From the NCBI RefSeq assembly GCF_020164455.1, contig NZ_JAIQWW010000015.1:1-64000 (forward strand): a stretch of DNA of 64,000 bases, in the 5' to 3' direction. Position numbers and translations under genes: made by a program. The DNA comes from Phyllobacterium chamaecytisi (lineage in GTDB: Bacteria > Pseudomonadota > Alphaproteobacteria > Rhizobiales > Rhizobiaceae). A model generated the notes under the pieces. It made no database searches. It was not told the origin of the DNA and worked only from the letters and a program-made list of their open reading frames with translations. Positions 26,951 through 55,181 of this stretch are shown piece after piece; position 1 is the first letter of the stretch, and every line of letters begins with the position of its first letter.

Positions 26951-27195
26951 CACTTTGTCCTTCCTTGCCTGCAGCGAACTGGCATAGTTGGCACGGGATG
27001 GGATTGCCGGATGAAATACCGAAAACGAATCAAATCAGCTCATCCCGAGCAAGGGATATGAATCAGACAAGCGTCGTTGACGCAACCGTTGGCTCGGCCC
27101 CACTATAGTCTTGCAGAAAAGAAACCACCATCGCACGCCAGACGACCACTTTCTGACATCACTCAAGGCTGATCGGAACACGGCGGCCGATACCT

Positions 27196-32952: not shown

Positions 32953-33203
32953 TAAAACGCGCGGTTGATTTCTTTGGTGACGAAAGATACGCGAGCCAGC
33001 GACGCCGGCTGTTCTATCTGGTGCTCGTTCTGGTCGTCATCGCCGATTTTCTGGTCCCCCGCGAACATGCCGAATACCTGTGGGACCGCCTGCCGGGCTG
33101 GTCGGCGGTCTACGGCTTCGGCTCCTGCGTGCTGCTGATTTTCGTTTCCAAGTTCCTTGGCCATCAGTGTGGGATTATGCGGCGCGAGGACTACTATGAC
33201 TGA
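32949..33203 (+). CDS. Small one- or two-helix membrane protein in the nuo operon
   Basis: An 84-residue protein with a charged N-terminus (MIKRAVDFFGDERYASQRRR), a hydrophobic helix (LFYLVLVLVVIADFLVP) and a second one (GFGSCVLLIFVSKFLGHQC), ending in IMRREDYYD. ATG 32949 overlaps the stop of the MrpD-like gene by 4 bp, and the gene overlaps the next by 8 bp, so it is translated with them. No complex I subunit I know matches it. It may be an accessory subunit linking the extra pump to the complex. Confidence 0.75.
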   Translation: MIKRAVDFFGDERYASQRRRLFYLVLVLVVIADFLVPREHAEYLWDRLPGWSAVYGFGSCVLLIFVSKFLGHQCGIMRREDYYD

Positions 33204-34956: not shown

Positions 34957-34964
34957 GGGGGGCA

Positions 34965-37876: not shown

Positions 37877-38031
37877 TCGATTGGATTTGCAATGAACTGC
37901 CCGACGGAATACACTTTCAATTCAGGAAAGGACTGCCCAAGTCACTTCCCGGGGCGACCGCATCACCGGTCCAGAGCGGATTCGGTCGCGGCCTGAGCAA
38001 AGCCCTCGGTGGATGACCGGGGCGATGCGAT

Positions 38032-38400
38032 ATGACAGCTGCAATGGAATTCCTGCCAGTTCTTTTCATGGTCGCTGGAATTGTTCTGGTGGCGGGCGTG
38101 ACGCTTTTTGTTTCCTCGCTACTGCGTCCGTCCAATCCCTATCCCGCGAAGAACATGCCCTATGAATGTGGGATGGACCCGGCGGGCGAGGCAGCCGGAG
38201 GCCGTTTCAGAGTGCAGTTCTTCATCCTCGCGATCCTGTTGGTGGTCTTCGATGTCGAGACGATGTTCTTGTTCCCCTGGGCCGTTGTCCTGAAAGACAT
38301 CGGGCTGGTCGGTTATGTCGAGATGTTCGTCTTCATGTTGCTGCTCGTCGTGGGCTTCGCATACGCATGGCTGAAGGGAGCGCTGGAATGGGAGGCGTAA
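38032..38400 (+). CDS. nuoA: NADH-quinone oxidoreductase subunit A
   Basis: A 122-residue three-helix subunit. The family motif [20 protein letters not shown], with the quinone-site loop Cys, is followed by [20 protein letters not shown] with the conserved Asp-Glu pair. It shares its last 13 bases with the start of nuoB. In most bacteria nuoA is the first gene; here it follows nuoN. Confidence 0.95.
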
Positions 38401-38891
38401 ACAATACGATCCGCGACAGCGTGCTGTTCACCACGGCCGACAGCGTCATCAGCTGGAGCCGAAGGTCGGCGCTGTGGCCCGAGACGTTCGGTATCGCCTG
38501 CTGCGCAATCGAAATGATTGCGGCGGGTTGTGCGCGCTACGATCTCGACCGGTTTGGCGTCGTGTTCCGGCCGTCGCCGCGCCAATCCGACGTGATGATT
38601 ATTGCTGGCACCGTGACGCGGAAATTCGCTCCCGTCGTGCTCCGTCTCTATGACCAGATGCCGGAACCGCGCTGGGTTATCGCGATGGGTACGTGCGCTA
38701 TATCGGGCGGGGTCTACAACACCTACGCCGTGGTGCAGGGGGCGGAGACCTTCGTGCCGGTCGACGTGCATGTGCCCGGCTGCCCGCCGCGGCCCGAGGC
38801 GCTTATGCATGGCTTCCTTCTGCTTCAGGAGAAGATCAAGAAAACCCGGGCGTTAGCGGGGACTCCTCTGGAAAGGGTTGCGGCGCGATGA
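38388..38891 (+). CDS. nuoB: NADH-quinone oxidoreductase subunit B
   Basis: A 167-residue cytoplasmic subunit that holds the terminal [4Fe-4S] cluster N2 next to quinone. All four ligands are present: the adjacent Cys38 and Cys39 in GIACCAIE, Cys103 in GTCAISGG and Cys132 in [14 protein letters not shown] 38388 lies inside the end of nuoA. It overlaps nuoC by 4 bp. Confidence 0.96.
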
Positions 38892-39424
38892 GCATGGAGG
38901 TGCCCCTCGATCGCGCCCCGATCACGGAGCGTTTCGGCGAGGCAATCGACGATCTTGGTTTTGCACATGGTGTTCATTCCTTCGCCGCTCCGCCTGAAAT
39001 GATCGTCGAGTTTTGCCGGTTTCTCAAGGAACACCCGGCGCTCCGGTTCAATTTCCTGTCGGACATATGCGGGGTCGATCATTACCCTGAGATGCCGCGC
39101 TTCGAGGCCGTGTACCACCTCTATTCCCTGCCGAACAAATGGCGCGTTCGCATCAAGTCCCGGCTCGGCGATCCGCCGCGCGTCCCGTCGGTGATAGGGG
39201 TCTGGCGGACCGCCAACTGGCATGAGCGTGAAGCCTGGGATATGTACGGGATAAGGTTCGAGGGCCACCCCGACTTGCGCCGGATTTACATGTGGGAAGG
39301 CTTCGAGGGCTTTCCGCAACGCAAGGACTTTCCGCTCCGGGGTTACAAGGACAAGCTGAACCCGTTTGGTGTCGAAGGCACGCCGCCGACGCAGCCCGAC
39401 CTCGCCACCAAGAACATTCCATAG
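38888..39424 (+). CDS. nuoC: NADH-quinone oxidoreductase subunit C
   Basis: A 178-residue peripheral subunit. [20 protein letters not shown] and [20 protein letters not shown] with RKDFPLRGY are the 30-kDa-subunit signatures. It is separate from nuoD, unlike the fused nuoCD of enterobacteria. The ATG overlaps the nuoB stop. Confidence 0.95.
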
Positions 39425-39450
39425 GGAGGCCGCTTCACCGGGAACTTGAG

Positions 39451-40665
39451 ATGACCGAAGTCACGGAACTGAGCAGGCCGGAAGGCGAAGCGCTCGACAC
39501 CAGGGAGGTGCTTCTCAACCTCGGTCCGCAGCATCCCAGCACGCATGGGGTGCTGCGGCTTGTCCTTGAACTGGAAGGCGAATATGTCAAGCGGGTGGAC
39601 CCGCACATCGGCTATCTCCACCGCGGCACCGAAAAACTGGCGGAGAGCTTCACCTACACCCAGATTTTTCCGCTGACAGATCGGCTCGATTACCTCTGCC
39701 CGCCGTCGAACAACCTGGCCTTCGCGCTGGCTGTGGAGAAGCTCCTGGGCATCGAGGCACCGATCCGCGCGCAATATATCCGCGTGATGATGGCCGAGCT
39801 GGCGCGAATCTCGGGTCATCTCCTGATCACTGGCGCGCTGCCGCTGGACCTCGGCGCAATGACCGCGTTGCTCTACGCCATGCGCGAGCGTGAAATGATC
39901 ATGGACCTGCTTGAGATGATCAGTGGCGCGCGGATGCATACCTCGTTCTGCCGGGTCGGCGGTGTGCGCGAGGACCTGCCGGACGGTTTTATCCCCAAGA
40001 TCAGGGCGTTCTGCGATATCTTCCCGAACCGGATCCGCGACTATGAACGGCTCGTGGAAAACAACAGGGTATTTCTGAACCGCACGCAGGGGATTGGCGT
40101 GATCTCCGCCGAGGACGGCATCGATCTCGGCCTGAGCGGCCCGAACCTGCGAGCTTCGGGCGTCGACTGGGACATCCGCCGCGACGAGCCCTATGAGATC
40201 TACGACCGGCTCGACTTCAACGTCATCACCCGCAATGAGGGCGATTGTTATGCCCGGTGGCAATGCCGGGTCGAGGAGATGCGCGAGAGCGTCCGCATCA
40301 TCGAACAATGCTTCGACCAGATGCCCGAGGGGCCGTTCCAGATCGACATGCCGACGATCGCTTTCCCGGTGGACAAGGACAAGGTGCATTGCTCGATGGA
40401 GGCGCTGATTCAGCACTTCGACCTGTCGGCCTATGGCTTCAAGGTGCCGAAAGGCGAGGTCTATTCGGCAATTGAGTCGCCAAAGGGCGAACTCGGATTT
40501 TACATCATCAGCGACGGTTCGGAAAAGCCGTTCCGCATGAAGGTGCGGGCACCGTCGTTCGTCAACCTTCAGGGATTGTTTGTGGCAAGCAATGCGCAGT
40601 ACCTGGCGGACATGATCGCCGTGCTGGGCAGCTTCGACCCGGTGATGGGCGAGGTCGACAAGTAG
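39451..40665 (+). CDS. nuoD: NADH-quinone oxidoreductase subunit D
   Basis: A 404-residue 49-kDa-type subunit that with NuoB forms the quinone pocket. LNLGPQHPSTHGVLRLVLEL includes the quinone-site His, PHIGYLHRGTEKLAE the Tyr/His region, and RGELGFYIISDG-like PKGELGFYIISDGSEKP the C-terminal motif. The ATG at 39451 lies 26 bp after nuoC. Length and motifs are standard. Confidence 0.96.
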   Translation: MTEVTELSRPEGEALDTREVLLNLGPQHPSTHGVLRLVLELEGEYVKRVDPHIGYLHRGTEKLAESFTYTQIFPLTDRLDYLCPPSNNLAFALAVEKLLGIEAPIRAQYIRVMMAELARISGHLLITGALPLDLGAMTALLYAMREREMIMDLLEMISGARMHTSFCRVGGVREDLPDGFIPKIRAFCDIFPNRIRDYERLVENNRVFLNRTQGIGVISAEDGIDLGLSGPNLRASGVDWDIRRDEPYEIYDRLDFNVITRNEGDCYARWQCRVEEMRESVRIIEQCFDQMPEGPFQIDMPTIAFPVDKDKVHCSMEALIQHFDLSAYGFKVPKGEVYSAIESPKGELGFYIISDGSEKPFRMKVRAPSFVNLQGLFVASNAQYLADMIAVLGSFDPVMGEVDK

Positions 40666-40681
40666 CAGGGATTTGGACGCG

Positions 40682-41194
40682 ATGAACATGCGCGAAAAGA
40701 TTAAAGCAGCGGCGGCGCGGTATCCGGACCAGCGCTCGGCGATCATGCCCGCGCTACTGATCGCGCAGAAGGAACATGGCTACCTGCCCGGCCCCGTGTT
40801 GGAAGAGGTCGCGGATATCCTCGATGTCGAGCGGATCTGGGTTTACGAGCTGGCGACTTTCTACACCCTCTTCCATACAGAACCGGTGGGTGTGTTCCAC
40901 CTGCAACTCTGCGACAATGTATCCTGCATGCTGCGTGGCGCCGAGGATTTGCTGAGGCATCTGGAGGAGGTGCTGGGAATCACGAAGGGCGGTACCACCC
41001 CGGACGGGCTGTTCACACTTTCGACCGTCGAATGCCTCGGCGCTTGCGAAATGGCCCCGGTGATGCAGCTCGGTGACGACTATCAAGGCGATCTCGACAT
41101 CGCGCGGATCGACGCGTTGTTGGACAGGTTGCGGGCGACAGCGGGGCAAGCGACTGGTGCTGATCTCGCCGCCACAGTGCCACCGGGAGAGTAG
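40682..41194 (+). CDS. nuoE: NADH-quinone oxidoreductase subunit E
   Basis: A 170-residue thioredoxin-like subunit carrying the [2Fe-2S] cluster N1a. The ligands are two Cys in LQLCDNVSCML and two in VECLGACEMAP. ATG 40682 follows AGGGA; ATG 40688 is also possible. It forms the NADH-oxidising module with NuoF and NuoG. Confidence 0.95.
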   Translation: MNMREKIKAAAARYPDQRSAIMPALLIAQKEHGYLPGPVLEEVADILDVERIWVYELATFYTLFHTEPVGVFHLQLCDNVSCMLRGAEDLLRHLEEVLGITKGGTTPDGLFTLSTVECLGACEMAPVMQLGDDYQGDLDIARIDALLDRLRATAGQATGADLAATVPPGE

Positions 41195-41198
41195 CGCC

Positions 41199-42464
41199 AT
41201 GTTCGAACCGATCCTTCTGAGGAACGTGGACGTGCCGGACGGCCATCTGCTCGCCACCTACAGGGCCGGCGGCGGTTACCAGGCGCTGGCGAAAGCGCTT
41301 GATGAACACACGCCTGACGAGATCATCAGTCTCGTCAAAGAATCCAACCTGCGGGGTCGCGGTGGGGCCGGATTTCCAACCGGACTGAAATGGAGCTTTG
41401 TGCCGAAGCGTGCCGGCAAGCCGAAATACCTGTGCTGCAATGCCGATGAGGGCGAGCCGGGCACCTTCAAGGACCGGATCATCATGGAACGCGACCCGCA
41501 TCAGCTGATCGAGGGTCTGGCGATCAGTGGCTACGCGATCGGTGCTGAAACCGCCTATGTCTACATCCGCGGGGAATACACCCTGGCAATCCAGCGGCTG
41601 GAGCAGGCGATCGCTGAGGCCCATGCGAAGGGTTATCTGGGAACGCGGATCAGGGGCTCGGATTTCAATTTCGTCGTGCACATCCATTGCGGTGCCGGCG
41701 CTTATATCTGCGGCGAGGAGACCGCAATGCTCGACTCGCTCGAAGGCAAGCGAGCGCAGCCACGCCTGAAACCGCCGTTTCCGGCGGTCGAAGGGCTCTA
41801 CGCAAGCCCGACAGTGATCAACAACGTCGAGACATTGGCCTGCGTCCCGCATATCGTGCTGCGGGGGGCAGGCTGGTTCCGCAACATCGGTCCCGACAAA
41901 AGCCCCGGCCCGAAGCTCTATTGTCTTAGCGGGCAGGTGCGGAAGCCGGGCCTTTACGAGCTGCCAATGGGTATACCGCTGCGAGAACTGGTCGAAGATA
42001 GCGGCGGCGGGCCGCTGCCGGGTCGCAAAATAAAGGCAGTGATCCCCGGCGGGGTCTCGGCGCCGCTGATTCCGGCGCACGGGCTGGATGTTGGTATGGA
42101 CTTCGATTCGCTGGCAGCCGCCGGTTCGATGCTCGGCTCGGCCGGGGTAATCGTGATCGACGACTCGACCTGTATGGTCAAGGTCGCCACCCGGATCATC
42201 GAATTCTTCCACCATGAGTCCTGTGGCAAGTGTACCCCGTGCCGCGAAGGACTGAATTGGGTTGTGAAAGTGCTGCGCCGGGTCGAGGCGGGGCAGGGGG
42301 TGCCGGGCGATCTGGAACAGCTGGAGGCGCTCTGCAAGGGCATTTTCGGCAACACGTTCTGCGCTCTGGGCGACGGCGCGGCTATCGGTTTGCGGGCGGC
42401 ACTGACGCATTTCGAGCATGAGTTCGTCGCCCATATCGAGGAGCACAGGTGCCCGTTTCACTGA
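41199..42464 (+). CDS. nuoF: NADH-quinone oxidoreductase subunit F
   Basis: A 421-residue NADH- and FMN-binding subunit. NLRGRGGAGFPTGLKWSFVP is the nucleotide loop, CCNADEGEPGTFKDR the NADH site, GAGAYICGEETA the FMN region, and ESCGKCTPCREG with a later GNTFCALG the [4Fe-4S] N3 ligands. ATG 41199 is 4 bp after nuoE. All catalytic motifs are intact. Confidence 0.97.
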   Translation: MFEPILLRNVDVPDGHLLATYRAGGGYQALAKALDEHTPDEIISLVKESNLRGRGGAGFPTGLKWSFVPKRAGKPKYLCCNADEGEPGTFKDRIIMERDPHQLIEGLAISGYAIGAETAYVYIRGEYTLAIQRLEQAIAEAHAKGYLGTRIRGSDFNFVVHIHCGAGAYICGEETAMLDSLEGKRAQPRLKPPFPAVEGLYASPTVINNVETLACVPHIVLRGAGWFRNIGPDKSPGPKLYCLSGQVRKPGLYELPMGIPLRELVEDSGGGPLPGRKIKAVIPGGVSAPLIPAHGLDVGMDFDSLAAAGSMLGSAGVIVIDDSTCMVKVATRIIEFFHHESCGKCTPCREGLNWVVKVLRRVEAGQGVPGDLEQLEALCKGIFGNTFCALGDGAAIGLRAALTHFEHEFVAHIEEHRCPFH

Positions 42465-42493
42465 AGAGCAGGGGAGAAGGCGGTAAGAAAGTC

Positions 42494-45067
42494 ATGGTTC
42501 GTGTCACGATAAATGAACAAACGCTGGAAGTGGAGACGGGCTCTACGGTGCTGCAGGCTGCCGAGCGCTTAGGCATCGACATCCCGACCTTCTGCTATCT
42601 GAAGCGGCTGCCGGCGCTGGCCTCATGCCGCATGTGCCTCGTGGAGATCGAGGGCCACCGGCGGCTGCAGCCTTCCTGCGCCACCGCCGTCACTGACGGA
42701 ATGGTCGTGCGGACGAATACGCCGCTGATTGATGAAACACGCTCGTCCATGCTCGACATGCTGCTCGCCAACCACCCCCTCGACTGCCCGATCTGCGACA
42801 AGGGCGGCGAGTGCGAGCTCCAGGACATGGTGATGGCGTACGGGCCCCGCGAAAGCCGCTTCCGCGACACCAAACGTGTGTTCCACTCCGAGGACATCCG
42901 CCTCAGCCCGGTCATCATCATGAACGTCAACCGCTGCATACAGTGCCAGCGCTGTGTCCGGATGTGCGAGGAGGTGGTCGGTGCGGTCGCCTTGGGTACT
43001 GTCGAAAAAGGCATGGATACCGCCGTGACCGGCTTCGAGGGCAGCCTCGCGAGTTGCGACCAATGCGGCAATTGCGTCGAGGTCTGTCCGGTTGGCGCAC
43101 TGATGAGCTTTCCTTATCGCTACAAAGCGCGGCCCTGGGATCTGGCCGAGACCGACACCGTCTGCCCGCATTGCGGCACCGGCTGTCAGTTGACAGTCGG
43201 CACGCGCAAGGGGGAGTTCATGCGGGTCCGCTCAAAAGCGGAGCACGGGGTTAACCGCGAAACGCTTTGCGTGCGGGGGCGCTTCGGCCTCGATTTCGTC
43301 ATGAGCCAGGACCGGATCAAGCGGCCTATGGTCCGTCGTGATGGCGCCCTCGTTCCGGTTTCCTGGGAAGAAGCGGGGGACTACCTGCGACGGCGCCTGT
43401 CGGCCGTCGAGGGAAAGGCCGCGGGCGGGCTGGCATCGCCGCGCCTTCCCAACGAGATGCTCTATCAATTCCAGAAAGTGATGCGGACGGTATTCCGGAC
43501 CAACAACATAGACTGCGCGTCGCGCTGGTCCACGCCGTTCGACGCGCTCGGCCCGTTGGTGGCGGGCTTCTACACCCGCGCGCCGCTGGAGGAAGTGATC
43601 GGCAACGACTGCGTGCTTGTCGTCGGTGGCAACGTGACCGACGAAAACCCGATCACCGAATACCTGCTGCGGGACGGCGCACGGCGGGGGCAGGTTCGGT
43701 TGCTCATGCTCTCGGCGCGACCATCCCGTCTGGACGCTGATGCCCTGGCGGTCGTTCGCGTTTCGCCGGGCGGTGAGGCTGCGAGCCTTGCCGCGGTGGT
43801 GGCCAGCATCGTGGCGGCGGCCGGTGAAGCCTTGCCAGTCGAGATGCTTGCGAAGATCGGCGCGACAACAGCGACCGCCGGCAGTGACGAAACGGACCGT
43901 CTGGCCACAGCGCTGCTGGAAGGCCGGAGCGTTACGGTGCTGGTCAGTGCTGACCTCCTGAGGTCGCCGCTAGCGCGCGCGACGTTGCAACAGCTCAACA
44001 ACCTTTTGCAGGTTCTCCGCGTACTGGATAAGGGACTTGCGATGCAGTTGCTCTTCGACCGTGTCAATCAGTTGGGCGCCTGGGATATGGGAGTTCTGCC
44101 GGCGGTGCTGCCGGGGCTGCGCGCGGTCACTGATGATGCGGCGCGCGGGGCTCTCGATCGGGCCTGGGGCGCCGAGATCCCGTCTCAACCTGGCGCGGAT
44201 TTCGACGGCATGCTGGATCTTTGTAACAGGGGGCGAATGGGGATGCTCTATATCGCCGGAAGCGACCCCCTGATGTCCTATCCCGACCGGGAATTCGTGC
44301 AGCGGGCGCTTCGTGCCGCCGATCTCCTGATCGTGCAGGACGCCTTCCTCACCGATACGGCGAGCCTGGCCGATGTGGTGCTGCCAGCTGCGAGTTATGG
44401 CGAGGAATCTGGCACTTTTACCAATAACGAGGGCCGGGTCCAGAAGGTCAGCAAGTTCCGCGAACCCGCCCTCGATGCGCGTGGCAATCTGGCGATCTTC
44501 GACTTCGTCGCGGCGCTTCGCAACCAAGCGTTGCGGCCATCGGTTCAAAGCGAGATTTTCGACGAGATTGCTCGGCTGGTTCCGGCCTACGGGGGGCTAA
44601 CGCAGGACCAGCTTGGCGTTGACGGAGCATTCACCAAGGCGTCCCGTGTGCCGCCAGTTGGCGAGTTCTTCGCCCCGCCGCTTGCCCCCATTGCAACCGA
44701 CCGGCTCATGTTGATCACCGGCAACTGCCTGTTCCACAACGGATATCTGTCCGAACATTCGGAAATCCTGAATACGGTCGCGTATGACCCCTATGTCGAG
44801 ATGGGCGCGCGGGATGCAGTGCAGCTAGGCCTTTCGGATGGCGATCAGGTGGTCGTGCGATCCGCCCAAAGCGAGCTGACCGCGCAGCTAAAGGTCAACA
44901 AGCGGTTTCCCACGGGCCTCGTGTTCGTTCCCGAAAATTACAGAGCCCTGCGTCTCAACGGACTGATGCGGCGGGGCGAATATCCATGTCCGGTCAACGT
45001 TCAAAAGGCGCACGCAGCCTTCGAGATCGCCACCGTCGTCGGAGTCGGGGCGGGGCCCGGGATCTGA
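42494..45067 (+). CDS. nuoG: NADH-quinone oxidoreductase subunit G with cluster N7 ligands
   Basis: An 857-residue iron-sulfur subunit. The N-terminal ferredoxin domain holds N1b; HPLDCPICDKGGECELQD binds N5; CIQCQRCVRMC and CDQCGNCVEVCP bind N4. It also has Cys224-x2-Cys227-x3-Cys231-x27-Cys259, the N7 motif of bacterial NuoG and molybdopterin formate dehydrogenases, absent from mitochondrial-type NuoG. A long molybdopterin-oxidoreductase-like domain follows, probably without cofactor. ATG 42494 fits the domain start; GTG 42449 with a GAGGAG site, overlapping nuoF, is the alternative. Confidence 0.95.
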   Translation: MVRVTINEQTLEVETGSTVLQAAERLGIDIPTFCYLKRLPALASCRMCLVEIEGHRRLQPSCATAVTDGMVVRTNTPLIDETRSSMLDMLLANHPLDCPICDKGGECELQDMVMAYGPRESRFRDTKRVFHSEDIRLSPVIIMNVNRCIQCQRCVRMCEEVVGAVALGTVEKGMDTAVTGFEGSLASCDQCGNCVEVCPVGALMSFPYRYKARPWDLAETDTVCPHCGTGCQLTVGTRKGEFMRVRSKAEHGVNRETLCVRGRFGLDFVMSQDRIKRPMVRRDGALVPVSWEEAGDYLRRRLSAVEGKAAGGLASPRLPNEMLYQFQKVMRTVFRTNNIDCASRWSTPFDALGPLVAGFYTRAPLEEVIGNDCVLVVGGNVTDENPITEYLLRDGARRGQVRLLMLSARPSRLDADALAVVRVSPGGEAASLAAVVASIVAAAGEALPVEMLAKIGATTATAGSDETDRLATALLEGRSVTVLVSADLLRSPLARATLQQLNNLLQVLRVLDKGLAMQLLFDRVNQLGAWDMGVLPAVLPGLRAVTDDAARGALDRAWGAEIPSQPGADFDGMLDLCNRGRMGMLYIAGSDPLMSYPDREFVQRALRAADLLIVQDAFLTDTASLADVVLPAASYGEESGTFTNNEGRVQKVSKFREPALDARGNLAIFDFVAALRNQALRPSVQSEIFDEIARLVPAYGGLTQDQLGVDGAFTKASRVPPVGEFFAPPLAPIATDRLMLITGNCLFHNGYLSEHSEILNTVAYDPYVEMGARDAVQLGLSDGDQVVVRSAQSELTAQLKVNKRFPTGLVFVPENYRALRLNGLMRRGEYPCPVNVQKAHAAFEIATVVGVGAGPGI

Positions 45068-45126
45068 GCTGAGGCATTACGGGCTCACTGACACCTGCCC
45101 TGCGTCTGGACCTCAAGCCGGCGATG

Positions 45127-45567
45127 TCAGTGATGAGCGGTCCCGGCAATGTATTCATGTAGCGCCTGCTCGTTGCGAAGCGCTTCGTCGAGGCGGTGCT
45201 TGACCACGTCGCCGATGCTCACCACACCGACAGCGGCGCCGCCATCCATGACCAATACATGGCGCGTGCGCCGCTCGGTCATGATCGCCATCACAAAGGG
45301 CAGAAAATCCTCTGTCGAACAGGTCGCCACACTGCGGTTCATGATGTCGGCGACCCGCATTATGGGCGCCTCGGTTCCGTATTCAGCCACCGCATTGCAG
45401 CAGTCCCGCTCCGACAGAGTGCCCAGGCATTCCCCGGGCGAACGGCTGACGACCACAAAACCGATGTTATTGTCTCGAAACAGCCGCAGGACTTCTACCA
45501 TCGGCTCATCTGGTGTGACCGAAATGAGCTCGGGAGACTTACTCTTCAAGATTTGGCAGACGTGCAT
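45127..45567 (-). CDS. CBS-domain-pair protein
   Basis: A 146-residue protein of two CBS domains: about residues 7-62 (ELISVTPDEPMVEVLRLFRD, GFVVVSRSPGECLGTLSERD) and 75-130 (SVATCSTEDFLPFVMAIMTE, HVLVMDGGAAVGVVSIGDVV). Such stand-alone pairs bind adenine nucleotides. It lies 45 bp after nuoI on the same strand and should be co-transcribed with nuoH-nuoI. That suggests it senses energy charge in connection with complex I. No catalytic domain is attached. Confidence 0.9.
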   Translation of the reverse strand: MHVCQILKSKSPELISVTPDEPMVEVLRLFRDNNIGFVVVSRSPGECLGTLSERDCCNAVAEYGTEAPIMRVADIMNRSVATCSTEDFLPFVMAIMTERRTRHVLVMDGGAAVGVVSIGDVVKHRLDEALRNEQALHEYIAGTAHH

Positions 45568-45612
45568 CTAAGCCTCCTCTTTGCGCGCTCCGGCTTGATT
45601 GGCGGCGCGCGG

Positions 45613-46179
45613 TTACGTTCGCCGGATATTCCGCCACCAGTTGTATCCCCGCCGCTCGCTCGTCTCGACGAGAACATCTTGCTCGGTGTTCAGGCGCGCA
45701 GCGACCACACCGCCACCGGTCCTCGCCTTGCCCGGCTTGCCGAGCAGATCTTCCCGCCCGACTACTAGGTCACGCGAGGAAAAACTCGAAAACTCATACT
45801 GTTGGCCAAGCGCGATCGCGTCGGCCGGGCAGGCGTCCTCGCACAGCCCGCAAAATAGGCACCGGGCCATGTCGATCTCGAACTTTGCCGGGTGCCGGCT
45901 GCCCTTGTCGTCCTCATAGGGAATGACTTCGATGCAGTCGCAGGGGCAAATCCGTGCGCAAAGTTCGCAGGCCACGCATTTGATCTCGCCCTCGTCGTCG
46001 CGCGTGAGGAAGTGATGCCCGCGGTAACGCGGGTAGGGCAACCATTTTTCCTTGTCCGGATACTGCATGGTCACGGATCTGGAGAACATGTAGCCGAAGG
46101 TCAAAGCCAATGCACTCACCAGATCAGCGAAGAACGCCCATCCGATCCATGCTCCAACTCCGTGCCGCGCGTGCGACAT
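45613..46179 (-). CDS. nuoI: NADH-quinone oxidoreductase subunit I
   Basis: A 188-residue subunit with two [4Fe-4S] clusters, N6a and N6b: Cys68, 71, 74 and 78 (CVACELCARICP) and Cys107, 110, 113 and 117 (CLFCGLCEDACP). An amphipathic N-terminus with FFADLVSALALTFGYMFSRS anchors it on the membrane. It is 30 bp after nuoH on the minus strand, separated from the rest of the subunits, which run towards it. Confidence 0.95.
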   Translation of the reverse strand: MSHARHGVGAWIGWAFFADLVSALALTFGYMFSRSVTMQYPDKEKWLPYPRYRGHHFLTRDDEGEIKCVACELCARICPCDCIEVIPYEDDKGSRHPAKFEIDMARCLFCGLCEDACPADAIALGQQYEFSSFSSRDLVVGREDLLGKPGKARTGGGVVAARLNTEQDVLVETSERRGYNWWRNIRRT

Positions 46180-46209
46180 CGCCGCCTCGCTACGGGGCCG
46201 CTATGGCCC

Positions 46210-47196
46210 CTATAAGAAAGCAATACCGGTTATTATTATGTTCGCCATCGACAGAGGAAGCAAGACTTTCCACCCGATCGCCATCAGTTGGTCGTAGCGG
46301 TAGCGCGGGAAAGTGAAGCGGAACCAGATAAACAAATAGACGAAGAACGCGACCTTGAGCAGAAACCAGAGGAGCGGTGGCAGAGGGACCAGCATGCCGT
46401 TCCAGCCGCCGAAGAACAGGATCACCACCAGGACAGACACCAGCAACACGATGGCATATTCGCTGACCATGAAGAAGGCAAAGCGGATACCGCTGTATTC
46501 GGTATGGAACCCGGCCCCCAGATCGCCCTCCGCTTCCGCCAGGTCGAAGGGAATGCGCTGCGCTTCGGCCAGTCCGGCGACGAAGAACACGAAGAAGCCG
46601 ACCGGTTGGTAGACGACGTTCCAGACGTCGGCTTGCGCCCGCACGATCTCGAGCAGGCTCATGGATTGCGCCAACATTACCACGCCGATGACCGCGAACC
46701 CCATCGGGATCTCGTAGCTGATCATCTGCGCACAGGTCCTGAGGCTGCCAAGGACCGCGTATTTGCTGTTTGCGGCCCAACCGCCGAAGATGACGCCATA
46801 GACCTCGAGCCCGATCACCGCGAAGACGAAAAGGAGCGCCACATTCATGTTGGAGACGTAGAGTGTGATCTCGGCGCCGAGGACCGAGACGGTTTCGCCG
46901 AATGGGATCGCGACGAACACCACAAAAGGCGGGGTGAGAGCCAGGATTGGCGCCAGTTTGAACAGGAAGCGGTCGGCCTCTGCCGGGATGTGGTCCTCTT
47001 TGGTTAACAGCTTGATTCCGTCCGCCACCGGCTGCAGCAGGCCGTGCCACCCCACCCGCATCGGCCCCATCCGCTGCTGCATGCGCCCGGCAATCTTGCG
47101 TTCCAGCCAGGTTAACGGCAAGGGCAGCAGCAGGAGGATCGCAATCAACAACGCGACCTTGAAGGCAATCAGGCCAAGGGCGACGATAAGTTCCAT
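46210..47196 (-). CDS. nuoH: NADH-quinone oxidoreductase subunit H
   Basis: A 328-residue membrane subunit with eight helices that forms the quinone entry. PLTWLERKIAGRMQQRMGPM, GWHGLLQPVADGIKLLTKED, and RIPFDLAEAEGDLGAGFHTE (acidic quinone-site loop) are canonical, and WFRFTFPRYRYDQLMAIGWK closes the protein. It begins the minus-strand unit nuoH-nuoI-CBS. Confidence 0.96.
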   Translation of the reverse strand: MELIVALGLIAFKVALLIAILLLLPLPLTWLERKIAGRMQQRMGPMRVGWHGLLQPVADGIKLLTKEDHIPAEADRFLFKLAPILALTPPFVVFVAIPFGETVSVLGAEITLYVSNMNVALLFVFAVIGLEVYGVIFGGWAANSKYAVLGSLRTCAQMISYEIPMGFAVIGVVMLAQSMSLLEIVRAQADVWNVVYQPVGFFVFFVAGLAEAQRIPFDLAEAEGDLGAGFHTEYSGIRFAFFMVSEYAIVLLVSVLVVILFFGGWNGMLVPLPPLLWFLLKVAFFVYLFIWFRFTFPRYRYDQLMAIGWKVLLPLSMANIIITGIAFL

Positions 47197-48263: not shown

Positions 48264-48731
48264 TCAAGAGAAAGCGATAGTCTGCGTGACAAATCGTTTA
48301 AAGGCTTCCAAGGTTTCCGGACTGACATGGTGCTCGATGCCTTCTGCATCAATTCTTGCCGTCTCAATACTGATGCCAATAGCGCATAGAAACGATTCAA
48401 CTATGTGATGGCGCTCACGGCTCTGTTCCGCGAGCTGTTTGCCGATATCCGTCAGAAAGATGCCACGATATCGGCGCTGTTGAATATAGCCGTCCGCAGC
48501 CAGCCGCTTCAGCATTTTCGCTACGGTCGGCTGAGCCACTCCAAGACGCAGTGCTATATCGACCTGCCTGGCCTCGCCCCCGTCCTCGATAAGATCCGCG
48601 ATCAGCTCGACATAATCCTCGACCAACTCCGTCCGCCGGTTGTGACGGGTTCGCCGGAAACTCTCCATGTGTGTGCTGGGGTCAACGAGCAAACTCTCGG
48701 AATCGCTGTGCGGTTTGTCATCGGGACTCAT
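48264..48731 (-). CDS. mntR: Manganese-responsive regulator MntR (DtxR family)
   Basis: A 155-residue protein. [20 protein letters not shown] with [20 protein letters not shown] is the DtxR/MntR winged helix, and [20 protein letters not shown] then [17 protein letters not shown] the metal-binding/dimerisation helices with the Glu and His ligands of MntR. It is very close to enterobacterial MntR in layout. ATG 48731 is preferred over GTG 48743. It is divergent from the multicopper oxidase gene, with a matching operator in between. Confidence 0.93.
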
Positions 48732-48866
48732 ATGATTCTTCACTTTCGGTAAATTTTTTAAAGCAAGAATTTTCTAACATAGCCCTGGCTATTCTTCCAT
48801 CATATCTGACAAATTTCCACACTGCAGGAAATTTTCAAGTCTCGGCGAATGGGGCAATCAACCAAA

Positions 48867-48882
48867 TATAGCACTTGCTATA
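48867..48882. promoter_or_regulatory. MntR-box-like operator over the oxidase promoter
   Basis: TATAGCA-CT-TGCTATA is a perfect inverted repeat with 7-bp arms. The ATAGCA/TGCTAT halves match those of known MntR boxes. A -10 hexamer TATACT (48879-48884) overlaps the right arm, so MntR with manganese bound would block transcription of the oxidase-permease unit starting at 48939. The site may also serve mntR itself. Confidence 0.7.
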
Positions 48883-48938
48883 CTATGAGTATGATGCTTT
48901 ACTTCATTTAAGTAGCTAATCGGAGCGCCGACTGAATA

Positions 48939-50060
48939 ATGCTGAAATGGGCACAGACGAATCTGAGCAGGCGGCGTCTGTTGGGCGGAAGCATCGCGAC
49001 GATCGGCGCATCAGCGATCTGTTCCAGCGGTGCGACGGCGCAGGAAGTCCATGGAAATCACGGAGGATCGACACCGAACGCCGACGCGGCGACATCTGCC
49101 CATAGGTCAGCGCACGGAGCGATGATCACTGTTGGTTCGGTCGACAATGCCCGTAATGGTTTCGATCCGACAACGATGTTAACGGATTGGTACACTGGCG
49201 TCGTCAGTGAACTCCCGGACGGCCGCAAACAACGTAGTTTCGAGATCACTGTCGAAGAGAAGGAGATAGAGATCGCGCCGGGTGTCATGTTCCCGGCCTG
49301 GACTTATAACGGCCGAGTACCGGGTCCTGCGCTTCGCGCAACTGAGGGCGACCGTCTTAAAATCACTCTCAAAAACAATGGATCACATCCCCATTCCCTG
49401 CATTTCCATGGGATCCATTCCGCGCGGATGGATGGCGTTCCCGGCGCGGGGGTCATCGATCCAGGCGAAGAGTTCGTTTATGAATTCGATGCAAAACCAT
49501 TTGGCTGCCATCTTTATCATTGCCATGCTCTGCCGCTGACCAGACACCTGCACAAAGGCATGTATGGTCTGTTCGTGGTCGATCCTGATCCAGCGCGGCA
49601 TCCGGAATATGCCGACATTGCAAAATCACGTCTTCTTGGTTCGCCAGAAAATGCGCAGTGGCAAGAATTGGCCATGGTCATGAACGCGTTCGATACGAAC
49701 TTCGACGGCGAAAATGAATTCTACGCATGCAATACGATTGCTCATTGCTATGCGAAGGAACCGATCGAGATCGTGCGTGACCGGCCCGTTCGTATATACT
49801 TGGTCAATATCACCGAGTTTGACCCGATTAACTCGTTCCATCTGCATGCCAATTTCTTTGACTATTACGATCAGGGAACGACGTTGACGCCAACGCTGAA
49901 GACCGTCGACCTGGTCATGCAGTGCCAGGCGCAGCGTGGCATTCTCGAGTTTACGTTCAAGGAACATGAGCCCGGCCTCTACATGTTCCATGCGCATCAA
50001 TCGGAATTTACGGAACTTGGCTGGATGGGCATGTTCGATGTCAGGGAGACGGTGTCATGA
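48939..50060 (+). CDS. Two-domain multicopper oxidase, Tat-exported
   Basis: A 373-residue secreted protein. The N-terminus SRRRLLGGSIATIGASAIC is a Tat signal. Domain 1 has HFHG (His155, His157) and HLYHCHALPLTRHLHKGM (His194-Cys195-His196, His205, Met208), which gives a type 1 copper plus half of a trinuclear site. Domain 2 has His301-x-His303 and His351-x-His353 but no Cys, so the trinuclear centre would form between subunits, as in trimeric two-domain laccases. It overlaps the ZIP permease gene by 4 bp and has an MntR-box upstream. Oxidation of Mn(II), Fe(II) or Cu(I) before uptake is a reasonable inference; the substrate is not proven. Confidence 0.9.
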   Translation: MLKWAQTNLSRRRLLGGSIATIGASAICSSGATAQEVHGNHGGSTPNADAATSAHRSAHGAMITVGSVDNARNGFDPTTMLTDWYTGVVSELPDGRKQRSFEITVEEKEIEIAPGVMFPAWTYNGRVPGPALRATEGDRLKITLKNNGSHPHSLHFHGIHSARMDGVPGAGVIDPGEEFVYEFDAKPFGCHLYHCHALPLTRHLHKGMYGLFVVDPDPARHPEYADIAKSRLLGSPENAQWQELAMVMNAFDTNFDGENEFYACNTIAHCYAKEPIEIVRDRPVRIYLVNITEFDPINSFHLHANFFDYYDQGTTLTPTLKTVDLVMQCQAQRGILEFTFKEHEPGLYMFHAHQSEFTELGWMGMFDVRETVS

Positions 50061-51259
50061 TGCACGAACCTGTCAACGTTACCCCGGCGCGCGCGCCGGC
50101 ATCGTCTGGATTGTCGCCTTTGCTCTGGTTGTTGGTCCCCGTCGCCATTCTGGCAATGGCAATCGTCTGGTTGTTCCAGGCAAATCCTCTCCAAGGTTTT
50201 AACAACGGGGCACCACCCGTCGAAAACCTGACGATCGAGCGGACGATCCTTGACCACAACGGATTGCGGTTGCTCGTTCGCGCCGGAGGCTCCGATCCGA
50301 TGGTGATTGCGCAGGTTCAGGTCGATGATGCCTATTGGGAATTCCAGAAAGACCCGCAGGGTCCCATTGCAAGGGGCGACACAACCTGGATCAGCTTGCC
50401 CTTCCCGTGGGTACTCGGGGAGACGCATAAGGTGAATTTTGTCACAAATACCGGAGCGACGTTCGAGCACGAGATTGCCGTGGCGGTGCCGACACCGATC
50501 GCCACATCCGGAAGCCTGTGGTCACAAGCCATTCTCGGTGCATTCGTGGGAATTCTACCCGTCGCCATCGGCCTGATGTGTTATCCCGCCCTGCGTGGCG
50601 CGGGTCCCGGAACAATGACATTTCTTCTGGCCATGACTGTTGGGCTGCTGGCCTTCCTGCTGGTTGACACCGTGGTCGAGGCGCTTGAATTTGCTGAAAA
50701 GTCAGCGCCAATCTTCCAGGGTAGCGTCATGGTTGTGCTCGTCGCAATTACCAGCTTCCTTGTGCTGATGGGTATTGGTCGGCGGCACGGAACACCGACG
50801 GGACTGGCTTTAGCAACATACATCGCTCTCGGCATCGGTCTGCACAATTTCGGCGAGGGATTGGCGATAGGCGCGGCATTTACCGCTGGCGCGGCCGGGC
50901 TCGGGACGTTCCTCGTGCTCGGCTTTACACTGCACAACATCACAGAAGGCATCGGAATTGCGGCTCCTATGTTGAAGAAGAGCCCCACGCTAGCCTCGTT
51001 CGCAGGCTTGGCACTGTTGGCTGGTAGCCCCGCCGTTGCCGGAATATGGGTGGGCAGTCTCGCATACGCGCCACAATGGACCGCCATTGCTCTAGCCATC
51101 GGCGCAGGGGCTATCGCCCAGGTTATTGTCGAAATCAGCGCGCTCATCGCTCGGCCGCAAAACCAAGGTATTACTGCATTGCTGTCACCGTCAGCGTTTG
51201 GCGGATTAGCAGCAGGTACCGCCTTCATGTACACCACTGCCATGCTCGTTAAACTCTGA
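50057..51259 (+). CDS. ZIP-family metal permease with N-terminal non-cytoplasmic domain
   Basis: A 400-residue membrane protein. Helix 1 (about residues 20-41) is followed by a soluble domain of roughly 105 residues (GAPPVENLTIERTILDHNGL to FVTNTGATFEHEIAVAVPTP), probably beta-rich and facing the periplasm. The ZIP core begins near residue 152 and contains the paired metal-site motifs His263-NFGE267-G and His293-NITE297-G. ZIP proteins bring divalent metals such as Zn, Fe or Mn into the cytoplasm; the added domain is unusual. ATGA overlap with the oxidase gene means both are made together. The domain may dock the oxidase or receive its product. Confidence 0.88.
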   Translation: MMHEPVNVTPARAPASSGLSPLLWLLVPVAILAMAIVWLFQANPLQGFNNGAPPVENLTIERTILDHNGLRLLVRAGGSDPMVIAQVQVDDAYWEFQKDPQGPIARGDTTWISLPFPWVLGETHKVNFVTNTGATFEHEIAVAVPTPIATSGSLWSQAILGAFVGILPVAIGLMCYPALRGAGPGTMTFLLAMTVGLLAFLLVDTVVEALEFAEKSAPIFQGSVMVVLVAITSFLVLMGIGRRHGTPTGLALATYIALGIGLHNFGEGLAIGAAFTAGAAGLGTFLVLGFTLHNITEGIGIAAPMLKKSPTLASFAGLALLAGSPAVAGIWVGSLAYAPQWTAIALAIGAGAIAQVIVEISALIARPQNQGITALLSPSAFGGLAAGTAFMYTTAMLVKL

Positions 51260-51522: not shown

Positions 51523-51723
51523 TGAGTAAGCCCGACGTCAGTTACAAGAACCATCGCTTTCATCGATTCCTTTGAGCCTGCGGCTGATGGAGGAGATGCT
51601 GCTGGAGCGCGGCGTCGTCGTCTCCCATGAAACGATCCGTCGATGGGGCAGGAAGTTTGGTCCCAGCTATATCCGTCGTCTTCGTCGCAAGCGGCCTTCG
51701 CCGAATGATATTTGGCATCTTGA
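51523..51723 (+). pseudogene. IS6-family transposase remnant
   Basis: The start MSKPDVSYKNHRFHRF is followed by a short deletion and frameshift. Then LSLRLMEEMLLERGVVVSHE and TIRRWGRKFGPSYIRRLRRK followed by WHLD match the N-terminal HTH region of IS6/IS26-type transposases up to the first Asp of the DDE triad. The catalytic domain is missing after that point. No terminal inverted repeats were found. Confidence 0.8.
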
Positions 51724-51916
51724 CCTGCCACGGAAGCGTGATGGAATCAGTTCCAGGAAAGACTACCAGCCTTATCTCACGCCAAATTTGGATCTATGTC
51801 TGGCCAGGCTTTTATCAGGACTGCGACTTGAGCCGCAACGACAAAAGACCATTTCTCCAGATTGCCGTAAAGGTCTATAATTACATCGTATACTGCCTCC
51901 ACGGAGGGGGCCGTCG

Positions 51917-52566: not shown

Positions 52567-53325
52567 CTATCTGGATTTAGTTGCCGCAACCTTGAAGAAG
52601 TCGCCGAGTTCCATCGGGAATGGAAACACGATCGTTGAATTCTTCTCATTGGCGATCACATTCAGCGTGCTGAGATAACGCAGTTGCATGGCTTCAGGGC
52701 GCTGCCCCAGGATATGGGCGGCCTCTAGCAATTTCTGAGCAGCTTGCTGCTCGCCCTCGGCGTTGATGACTTTGGCTCGCCGTTCGCGTTCGGCCTCGGC
52801 TTGCCTGGCGATGGCGCGCACCATCGTTTCGTTGAGATCAACATGTTTGATCTCGACATTTGCAACCTTGATGCCCCATGCGTCAGTCTGCGCGTCGAGA
52901 ATTTCCTGAATATCGCTATTGAGCTTGTCTCGCTCGGCCAGCATCTCGTCAAGATCGTGCTTGCCAAGGACAGAACGTAACGTCGTCTGGGCAAGCTGGC
53001 TCGTTGCCATCAGGAAGTCCTCGACCTGGATCATCGCCCGCTCGGGATCGATCACACGGAAATAGAGAACTGCGTTGACGCGCACCGAGACATTGTCCTT
53101 CGAGATTACGTCCTGGCTTGGCACATCGTGCACCACTGTCCGCAGATCGACACGCAGCATTTGCTGGACGAAGGGGATGAGGATGATCAGGCCCGGTCCT
53201 TTAACGCCGGTGAAGCGGCCAAGCGTAAACACCACGCCGCGTTGATATTCCCGCAATATCTTGATCGCGGCAGCCAAGAGCATCAGCAGGATGATGAGAA
53301 TCGGAATCAAGACAGTGATAAGCAT
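52567..53325 (-). CDS. Slipin (stomatin-like SPFH/band 7 protein)
   Basis: A 252-residue membrane-anchored protein. An N-terminal hydrophobic hairpin ([20 protein letters not shown]) precedes the SPFH domain: [40 protein letters not shown] and [21 protein letters not shown] coiled-coil part rich in Glu/Ala/Arg ([20 protein letters not shown]) and a short C-terminus follow. ATG at 53323-53325 fits the family. It pairs with the NfeD/ClpP-class protease gene 14 bp upstream, the standard stomatin operon partner. Confidence 0.93.
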
Positions 53326-53339
53326 TGGAAAGTCCTCCA

Positions 53340-54770
53340 CTAATTGCTCTCCGGCTGATCGGGTTCGACCTTGAGGACGATGCCCTCGATGCCTGCCACA
53401 CGGACCTGCTGTCCCTTTTTCAGCGGCGTCTCGGATACTGCCGCCCACCGTTCGCCATGGGCAAGGACATGCCCGCGGCGTCCACGCCACTCCAGGACCT
53501 CGCCATGCGCTCTCACCATCTCCTCGCTGCCCGTCACCACCGGGCGTTTGTGCGAGGAAAAGACCACGTGGACGATGATCAAGGAAAGCGCCAGACTGGT
53601 CAGGGCGACGCCTGCGGTCAGCGGCCAGGAAATGCGAAAAGCTGGAATGTCGGTATCGATCAATATCGTGGCGCCGGATATGAAAGCGATGACGCCGCCA
53701 ATGCCCAGAACGCCGAAAGATGTCACGAACGCTTCGGAAGCCATCATCGCAAGACCGAGGATAATGAGACCAAGACCAGCAAAATTCACAGGAAGCACAG
53801 CGAGTGCGTATAGGCCGATCAGAAGGCAAATCGCGCCGATGGTTCCCGGAAAAAACGAACCCGGAGCCATGAATTCGAAGATAAGTCCGTAGATACCTAT
53901 CATCATCAGGATCAGCGCGACATTCGGGTTCGTGATCACCATCAGCAGCTCCGTGCGCCAGTCCTTGTTGATCTGGTCAAGAGGAAGACCTCTGGTATCG
54001 AGCGTAATCTCATTTCCTCCCGCGCTGACTTTGCGGCCATTGGCCTGCGCCAGAAGGTCATCCACGCTCGTTGCGAGGATATCGATCACATTTTCGTTGA
54101 GCGCCGCGCTGGAGGAAAGGCTTGCCGCTTCACGCACCGCTTTTTCGGCCCAGTCGACGTTCCGGCCGCGCAGTTCAGCCAGTGAGCGGATATAGGCCGT
54201 CGCGTCGTTGATCGCTTTCGTTTCCATCGGGCTGTGCGGCGTAGGGGGAGTGACCGTGTCGTCCCCATCCTTTTTTGTCCTGGCGTCCTGATCCTTGTTC
54301 TTATTGTCCTCGCCGCTCCCTGGAAATGGCAAATCGCCGATCTGGATGGGCGTCGCTGCGCCAAGATTGGTCCCGGGCGCCATCGCCGCGATGTGACTGG
54401 CATAGAGAATGTAGGTGCCGGCGCTGGCTGCGCGTGCGCCGCTTGGACTGACATAAGTGGCTACGGGCACCGGGGAGCCGAGGATGCCACGAATGATGTC
54501 GCGCATGGACGTGTCCAGACCGCCGGGCGTGTCCATTTGCAGAATAACGAGAGGCGCGTTGCGCTCTGCCGCCGTTCGCAAGCCACGCAATATATAGTCG
54601 GATAAGGCTGGGCCAACGATGCCTTCGAGTTGCAGGACCAGCACTGTACGTGCGCTCTGTGCATCGTTCGGCAATACGGACAAAAAGCTACCGAGTAACA
54701 CTACGGCAACGGAAAGGGCGGCACGATTATATCCGAACCAATCTGCGATGAATTTTCTCATCAGGCCCAT
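53340..54770 (-). CDS. NfeD-family membrane-bound serine protease (ClpP class)
   Basis: A 476-residue protein. After an N-terminal signal or anchor helix, residues about 40-240 form the ClpP-like protease ([40 protein letters not shown] with the catalytic Ser, and [20 protein letters not shown] with the Lys). Four or five membrane helices follow, and the C-terminal NfeD OB-fold domain ([20 protein letters not shown]) ends the protein. A long polar insert is rich in Asp/Lys ([17 protein letters not shown]). In Pyrococcus the homologue cleaves the stomatin partner. ATG 54761 is an alternative start. Confidence 0.93.
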
Positions 54771-55181
54771 GGTCCAGCTTACATCAGAGCGTTTGCTTCT
54801 GCCATATGCGCATTGAAATTCGCGCACCCAACACACACACGCCTCGGTGGCATCGACGTGCCATAGTGGGGTGATTGCAACCGTCGCGAGAAGCGGAGGA
54901 CGTTATCCCATCGCAATGCCCATTGTTATAGAGATCGACCTTGACGCCGAAGAGATTCGGTCATTCGAAGTGATTTGAACACATCCACCTATCGTGAGAA
55001 AATTCCAGTGTTCGGTGAGACAGGCCTGCGGAACGCGGCAACCTCCGAACGAGGAAACACAAGGAGCCGGGGTCTCTCGGGCTCGATCTGAGAACCTCTC
55101 GCTCACCGCATGACGATCCATGTAGCTGGCTTTGCCTCAGGCTTAGTCAGGTGTGTTTCCGGTGTAGCAAAGGAAACGATC
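54771..55181. other. Gene-free stretch upstream of the formate dehydrogenase gene
   Basis: Between divergent genes, with no ORF worth naming. It should hold both promoters. I see no strong palindrome or promoter boxes that I would defend. Confidence 0.5.

Follow-up and report, generated by a model that had tools for sequence, protein, structure and literature searches.

Organization of the locus

The DNA analysed here, hereafter the window, is a 64,000-nucleotide stretch of Phyllobacterium chamaecytisi (Rhizobiaceae; contig NZ_JAIQWW010000015.1 of RefSeq assembly GCF_020164455.1, positions 1 to 64,000). It carries a gene for the manganese-binding regulator MntR, a gene for a two-domain multicopper oxidase (MCO), and a gene for a ZIP-family permease with an extra N-terminal module (Table 1). 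The mntR and oxidase genes are divergent and separated by an intergenic region of 195 bp, and the oxidase and permease frames overlap by 4 bp (ATGA, 50057-50060). The coordinates of the open reading frames agree in all these respects with a first-pass annotation made from the sequence, which had also suggested that the three genes form an oxidase-coupled metal uptake system. We analysed the proteins, the operator and the distribution of the pair in other genomes.

Table 1. Predicted features of the mntR-oxidase-permease locus (positions in the window)
Feature	Position	Strand	Basis or remark
mntR, predicted E. coli-type manganese-binding regulator	48264..48743	-	GTG start; alternative ATG 48731
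Putative MntR box 1, ATAGCCCTGGCTAT, mntR-proximal	48779..48792		ATAGC-N4-GCTAT
Putative MntR box 2, ATAGCACTTGCTAT, oxidase-proximal	48868..48881		ATAGC-N4-GCTAT
Extended -10-like element TGCTATACT over right arm of box 2	48876..48884	+	read from sequence
Two-domain MCO, 373 amino acids	48939..50060	+	Pfam Cu-oxidase_3 and Cu-oxidase_2; 7rab and 3gdc matches
Twin-arginine signal region (SRRRLLGG)	48939..49043	+	read from sequence
Cupredoxin domain 1: type-1 site (H152, C195, H203, M208) and half of the trinuclear site (H155, H157, H194, H196)	49251..49589	+	
Cupredoxin domain 2: other half of the trinuclear site (H301, H303, H351, H353), invariant W362	49701..50048	+	
ZIP permease with N-terminal extra module, 400 amino acids	50057..51259	+	Pfam Zip, model pLDDT, BbZIP 5tsa match
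Extra module, residues 15-146: membrane helix and beta-sandwich resembling archaeal pilin, FlaF or FlaG	50099..50494	+	
ZIP core; metal site H263, N264, E267, H293, N294, E297	50507..51253	+	

Conservation of the oxidase-permease pair

The permease-family scan yielded at least 563 confirmed relatives, of which the best 80, nearly all from Alphaproteobacteria and related to one another, were analysed as genome loci (L053 and plasmid locus L012 being one record). In all 80 the oxidase gene lay directly upstream of the permease gene on the same strand, and an ATGA or GTGA overlap of the two frames was found in 82 of the 93 loci L002-L094.

The pair was recovered from either side. When 297 genomes of the order were searched with the oxidase family, 22 oxidases matched at E <1e-150, each with an adjoining permease; a survey of 121 genomes of the family found 14 with the permease, each of which also had the oxidase; and in a phylum-wide draw of 299 genomes, 2 had an oxidase at E up to 1e-60, both as part of the pair, all three counts being lower bounds, as only some of the candidates per genome were scored, and including the window's own genome. 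Five distant oxidases found in the oxidase-family search (E 4e-37 to 8e-32, 25%-28% identity) had no permease within 1.5 kb. A permease remnant was found in a third genome of the phylum-wide draw, and the 23 remaining matches to the permease profile aligned only from position 154 or beyond; these would be ordinary ZIP carriers without the extra domain.

Plasmids gave the same picture. In 17 plasmid regions picked by hand from the match lists rather than at random, the pair was present in 16, and the remaining one, a permease fragment, had been picked for its partial match. These plasmid pairs come from Pseudomonadota, Cyanobacteriota, Actinomycetota, Bacillota, Deinococcota and Halobacteria. 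Across the plasmid collection, 146 records matched the permease and 128 the oxidase, at different thresholds. Eight top genera had equal counts in both searches (e.g., Pseudosulfitobacter 37, Rhodococcus 30), and Halomarina (3) was in the top ten of the permease search only.

The pair is therefore patchy but, where seen, almost always whole. According to the first-pass annotation, its idea would fall if the two homologues did not occur together elsewhere; they did so in every survey run, and searches in both directions rule out chance pairing. Intact permeases without an oxidase were also rejected, as the two exceptions, L169 and L170, proved by tblastn to be fragments lacking the extra domain. 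Long frames of up to 751 amino acids had suggested fused oxidase-permease genes, and this was dismissed because the best matches lay in different frames at 14 of 14 loci.

The permease remnants L170 (G175 contig 15) and L169 (an Acuticoccus plasmid) have neither oxidase nor extra domain in the stretch examined. The former overlaps, on the opposite strand, with the end of an mntR-like frame, as if the unit had been deleted.

MntR and its operator

The window regulator is predicted to be an E. coli-type MntR, as it passes the curated cut-off of the NCBIfam model NF008273 (238 bits vs 153) and retains the expected Mn-ligand residues D43, E46, H112, E134, E137 and H138 in the alignment. These six positions correspond to the metal ligands of B. 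subtilis MntR. The best solved relative was 2h09 mntR (E 1.9e-49), and a 12-residue segment is common to the window protein and E. coli MntR.

Boxes 1 and 2 are the sole ATAGC-N4-GCTAT sites within one mismatch in the window. For the exact core TAGCN4GCTA, 0.24 sites are expected in the window, and 2 sites were reached by 3 of 100 shuffles. A divergent mntR was found within 700 bp in 36 of the 80 genome loci. Upstream of the oxidase, all 36 have the core within one mismatch (3.68 loci expected from shuffles) and 27 have it exactly (0.22 expected), and a second, mntR-proximal box was found again in the closer rhizobial loci. The operator is considered above chance because two sites fall in one 195-bp intergenic region and because they are conserved across loci; the MntR-type operator that the first-pass annotation had placed in front of the oxidase was thus confirmed.

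Loci without an adjoining mntR also contain boxes. Of these, 42 of 44 were scanned, and the exact core was present in 10 (0.28 expected) and the core within one mismatch in 15 (4.6 expected), so that some such loci may answer to an MntR encoded elsewhere. Twelve loci whose oxidase is preceded by a box with at most one mismatch but which have no adjoining mntR (L023, L025-L027, L033, L034, L036-L038, L041, L058 and L079) suggest control in trans; 10 of the 12 are titled Mesorhizobium.

The regulator of the E. coli MntR regulon belongs to the same family, and exact TAGC-N4-GCTA cores precede mntH (by 18 bp, inside the small open reading frame ypeD) and mntS (by 62 and 81 bp). Its targets differ, an Nramp importer and a small protein taking the place of the oxidase and the ZIP carrier. 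This comparison is weak alone, because the counts in the mntH and mntS stretches were reached by 37 and 18 of 200 shuffles with one mismatch allowed and because a further exact core lies inside mntH.

An element of the form TGNTATA[ACT]T coincides with a box in 13 of the 80 genome loci, and the window has the same overlap (TGCTATACT). Since the box contains a -10-like element, Mn-bound MntR should repress, and this overlap suggests Mn-dependent repression of the oxidase and permease genes. Speaking against the -10 assignment, no promoter with two hexamers was found by a scan for the sigma-70 consensus.

Regulators at other loci

Genes labelled as metal-dependent transcriptional regulators adjoin the pair in Rubrobacter and Salarchaeum and on two plasmids each of Arthrobacter and Deinococcus, and three of these genes match the window MntR by tblastn with 48-65 bits. 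Divergent from the pair in Deinococcus D7000 are a regulator of this kind and an Nramp transporter; the best NCBIfam match of this regulator was the Mn-dependent MntR model, at 231 bits below its cut-off of 350. Microvirga, an alphaproteobacterium, has a Fur-type gene after the pair. The other pairs from other phyla had no recognised adjoining regulator. A regulator tells which metal is sensed, not which ion the permease carries.

The multicopper oxidase

The Pfam scan found Cu-oxidase_3 and Cu-oxidase_2, i.e., two cupredoxin domains, and the strongest matches within the family were 7rab (E 1.4e-163) and 3gdc (E 1e-94). The type-1 and trinuclear copper sites were assigned on the general pattern of the family. 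The eight histidines of the trinuclear site and H152, C195 and H203 of the type-1 site were invariant in 40 of 40 aligned oxidases (the window protein included, Rubrobacter L006 excluded), as was W362; the axial position 208 was M in 25 and L in 15. With both domains and both sets of ligands present, the window protein is predicted to be a two-domain MCO. Its structural model was poor (predicted local distance difference test, pLDDT, 62.9) and was used solely for a fold listing with entry titles.

Export through the twin-arginine translocation (Tat) pathway, which the first-pass annotation had proposed together with the two-domain architecture, is consistent with the twin-arginine motif present in the sequence. 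R11 was found in 35 of the 40 aligned oxidases (5 gapped) and R12 in 34 (5 gapped, 1 Q). In Peribacillus asahii (L007, 6680-7643) tatA and tatC lie beyond the pair, separated from it by a single small regulator gene, an arrangement that fits Tat export. The Rubrobacter marinus oxidase (L006, 3373-4854) is extended at its N terminus by a long stretch that, by eye, appears to span the membrane.

The ZIP permease and its extra domain

The window permease missed the gathering score of the Pfam Zip family (25.7 bits vs 35.1), and 3 of 10 relatives scanned passed it (L007, 40.1; L164, 42.7; P0162, 35.4). The permease model, built from 54 sequences, reached a pLDDT of 85.7, and its membrane part matches BbZIP (5tsa; Foldseek E 6.7e-7). 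The protein is predicted to fold like ZIP carriers, with two of its helices bearing HNxxEG motifs, and the six site residues H263, N264, E267, H293, N294 and E297 were present in 51 of 51 permeases. It shares this fold and the HNxxEG-type helices with ZupT and BbZIP, and differs from them in the extra module and in a position that a weak profile alignment to BbZIP places at the expected glutamate of its M2 site (helix 6, by P325), where 46 of 51 sequences have G, A or L. Three permeases had interrupted or incomplete records: L131 was left out of the alignment for a stop codon in the span taken, L183 has one TGA inside the permease match, and L136 lies at a contig end, as do the oxidases of L143 and L150.

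The model places a membrane helix at residues 20-42 and a beta-sandwich at 58-140 ahead of the ZIP helices, with strands mostly at block pLDDT 89-94; the added non-cytoplasmic domain read from the sequence at first pass is thus borne out by the predicted structure. The best solved match of the family profile was 8fk7, a Pyrobaculum pilus protein labelled Flagellin (positions 15-130, E 2.7e-4), ahead of BbZIP. Foldseek with the permease model also returned 8fk7 (E 2.9e-3), as well as FlaF 4p94 and FlaG 5tuh (E 0.016-0.11). Its list comprised eight ZIP entries followed by archaeal type IV pili, archaella and the FlaF/FlaG stator at E 0.003 to >0.1, mixed with N-terminal domains of DsbD and some transporters. 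In Pfam, none of the 54 permease members matched a pilin- or flagellin-type family at 0.01, one of 10 relatives scanned matched Arch_flagellin at E 0.11, and 6 of 54 matched the Ig-like ASH domain. As sequence and fold agree, the extra domain appears, with modest confidence, to resemble archaeal pilins and the archaellum stator.

P54, Q86, W118 and G133 of the domain are invariant in 51 sequences. Since these are not metal ligands, the domain more probably has a structural or docking function than one in binding metal, and from its pilin- or stator-like fold the domain could possibly dock the oxidase. A metal-binding role was rejected, as no conserved His or Cys was found in the 51 sequences.

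Known systems and precedents

The best-known case of an oxidase coupled to a permease in metal uptake is that of yeast, where iron controls a three-domain oxidase, Fet3, and its FTR1 permease, which carries Fe(III). The P. chamaecytisi unit likewise pairs an MCO with a metal permease, and it differs in its two-domain oxidase, its ZIP permease in place of an FTR1-family one, and its MntR regulator.

Closer precedents come from archaea. In Nitrososphaera viennensis the gene of the two-domain oxidase MCO1 adjoins that of a zinc/iron permease (NVIE_000600 and NVIE_000590), a Fet3-like mechanism for copper was explicitly suggested for them, and an earlier survey cited in the same paper describes MCOs and ZIP permeases as conserved among ammonia-oxidising archaea (PMC7785015). 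Compared by published description, this system is alike in its adjacent genes and proposed coupling, and differs in being tied to copper limitation. The coupling idea is thus already in print for archaea, and the first-pass view that no such system had been described does not stand; the idea of oxidase-coupled uptake itself gains from the co-occurrence of the genes and the MntR-type control. No bacterial account of the pair was found in open-access literature, which is weak evidence of absence for a search made mostly at abstract level with little coverage of subscription journals.

MhMCO of Marinithermus hydrothermalis (7rab, 7rac), described as a dodecameric MCO, and the oxidase of Arthrobacter FB24 (3gdc) belong to the same family as the window oxidase and differ in having been solved as isolated oxidases. 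An Arthrobacter FB24 plasmid gene encodes a product matching 3gdc over all 288 chain residues, and it sits between a metal-dependent regulator gene and a ZIP gene. As for the other partners, Mn-bound MntR is described as repressing importers and E. coli ZupT as promiscuous (PMC3852070).

Proposed mechanism and alternatives

We propose that the three genes form a Mn-repressed, oxidase-assisted metal import unit, with a probability of about 0.5. When Mn is replete, Mn-MntR would occupy box 2 over the -10 region and block the mco-zip operon, and on box 1 it may limit its own gene; Mn shortage would open the operon. The oxidase would then be loaded with copper and exported by Tat, probably as an assembly with the trinuclear site between subunits, as in its relatives. 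The permease would bring a divalent ion inward through its HNxxEG sites, and the pilin- or stator-like beta-sandwich would face outside and most likely hold the oxidase or another partner at the permease mouth. Mn(II) is favoured as cargo, with Fe(II) second; that Mn is transported we infer from the regulator. What we infer most firmly is an extracytoplasmic oxidase made beside a metal permease under Mn shortage.

The oxidase could possibly remove competing reduced ions, supply an oxidised ion as in yeast, or free an ion from ligands. In the first role it would act as a redox gatekeeper that uses O2 to oxidise competitors such as Fe(II) or Cu(I) at the permease entrance, leaving a promiscuous ZIP carrier to deliver Mn(II). 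We lean toward this role because ZIP carriers move divalent ions and ZupT of E. coli is promiscuous. In its full form, a widespread class of importers in bacteria and haloarchaea in which a pilin-like domain docks the MCO on the ZIP carrier and Mn(II) is selected by oxidation of its competitors, the proposal is tentative and rather doubtful.

Several observations weigh against the import unit as proposed. The host genome has two Nramp genes, and no ATAGCN4GCTAT site within one mismatch was found at their loci, where the shorter core was not searched; Mn import is therefore neither unique to the unit nor visibly common to its regulator. Nramp genes lie within ~6 kb of the pair in only 3 of 96 loci. 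No divergent mntR was found within 700 bp in 44 of the 80 genome loci (3 of them near a contig end), and the one sampled genome of the same genus is without the pair. The exact ATAGCN4GCTAT box is not enriched across the host genome (8 sites vs 18 for a reversed control pattern), and a genome-wide MntR regulon was therefore rejected; 3 of the 6 exact-box sites outside the window were inspected (contigs 5, 8 and 23), each within a long open frame. Neighbouring genes point to other metals as well: 5 of 93 loci have a Fur-type cluster, in two cases together with mntR, a P-type ATPase cluster lies within ~6 kb in 32 of 93, and DsbA-, SCO- and PCuAC-like clusters, named from single annotated loci, were found in 19, 18 and 13. 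The archaeal MCO1 pair, too, is tied to copper limitation.

One to three members of each neighbour cluster were scanned. Among three P-type ATPases, two matched best the Zn/Cd/Hg/Pb model and one a general heavy-metal model, ahead of the cadmium model; two of the three also passed the copper cut-off. NCBIfam gave no match for the SCO- and PCuAC-like members scanned. A CDF-type cluster was present in 7 loci and a MerR-type cluster in 11. These neighbours indicate that the unit often lies in metal-handling islands, many of them on plasmids. The pair might accordingly restore Mn, or remove competing ions, under Zn, Cd or Pb stress and travel with resistance genes, and Cd is described as competing for MntR (PMC3852070). 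This explanation is quite unlikely as a separate one: no such gene was recognised in the subset of window open reading frames scanned, the counts are inflated by the relatedness of the loci, and it fits the import unit best as ecology rather than as a different mechanism.

ZIP carriers are known for divalent ions, and Pfam gave no FTR1 match to the permease at E up to 0.1. Both facts argue against a Fet3-like supply, in which the oxidase would make trivalent Fe or Mn and pass it directly to the permease as Fet3 does for Ftr1 in yeast. The strict pairing and overlap of the genes, a module outside the cytoplasm to which the oxidase could dock, and the yeast precedent, with the same analogy published for archaeal MCO1 and its permease (PMC7785015), speak for such a supply; ferric permeases are, on the other side, called much less common (PMC11817551), and we regard it as unlikely. 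Copper acquisition, with Cu(I) turned into Cu(II) by the oxidase and copper imported by the ZIP permease, would fit the rise of N. viennensis MCO1 and permease by 0.81 and 1.33 log2 under copper limitation (PMC7785015) and the SCO and PCuAC neighbours at some loci. It is very unlikely here, given MntR with conserved boxes at this locus and DtxR-type metal-dependent regulators elsewhere, and given that the archaeal case was compared by its description, not by permease homology. The same low likelihood is assigned to an attack of the oxidase on organic chelators or phenolics that would free Mn or Fe for the permease. The closest solved relative, MhMCO, has described laccase activity (PMC10673308), whereas no ligand-handling genes were recognised among the recurrent neighbour clusters, most of which are unnamed.

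Other genes of the window

Complex I (nuo) genes form a cluster at 31489-47196 that includes several Mrp-antiporter-like subunits, with nuoB-, nuoD-, nuoF- and nuoG-type genes on the plus strand and nuoH-type, 4Fe-4S (nuoI-like) and CBS-domain genes on the minus strand. A short FtsZ of 347 amino acids with both FtsZ domains, perhaps a second, tail-less copy, is encoded at 25910-26953. After the permease, a frame of 102 amino acids (51572-51880) resembles a transposase fragment but had no Pfam match at 1e-5. At 52567-54836 an NfeD gene adjoins a gene that by eye resembles its usual SPFH-type partner.

Implications

A conserved oxidase-ZIP unit, present in six prokaryotic phyla, often beside regulators of Mn or Fe families and with a pilin-like domain added to its transporter, would, if the proposed role is true, be a bacterial counterpart of the yeast oxidase-permease system. 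It would then also offer a route to understanding how metal selectivity arises in a promiscuous carrier. The association suggests a physiological setting for the solved two-domain oxidases 3gdc and 7rab, and the unit offers a simple genetic test of the copper proposal made for archaea.

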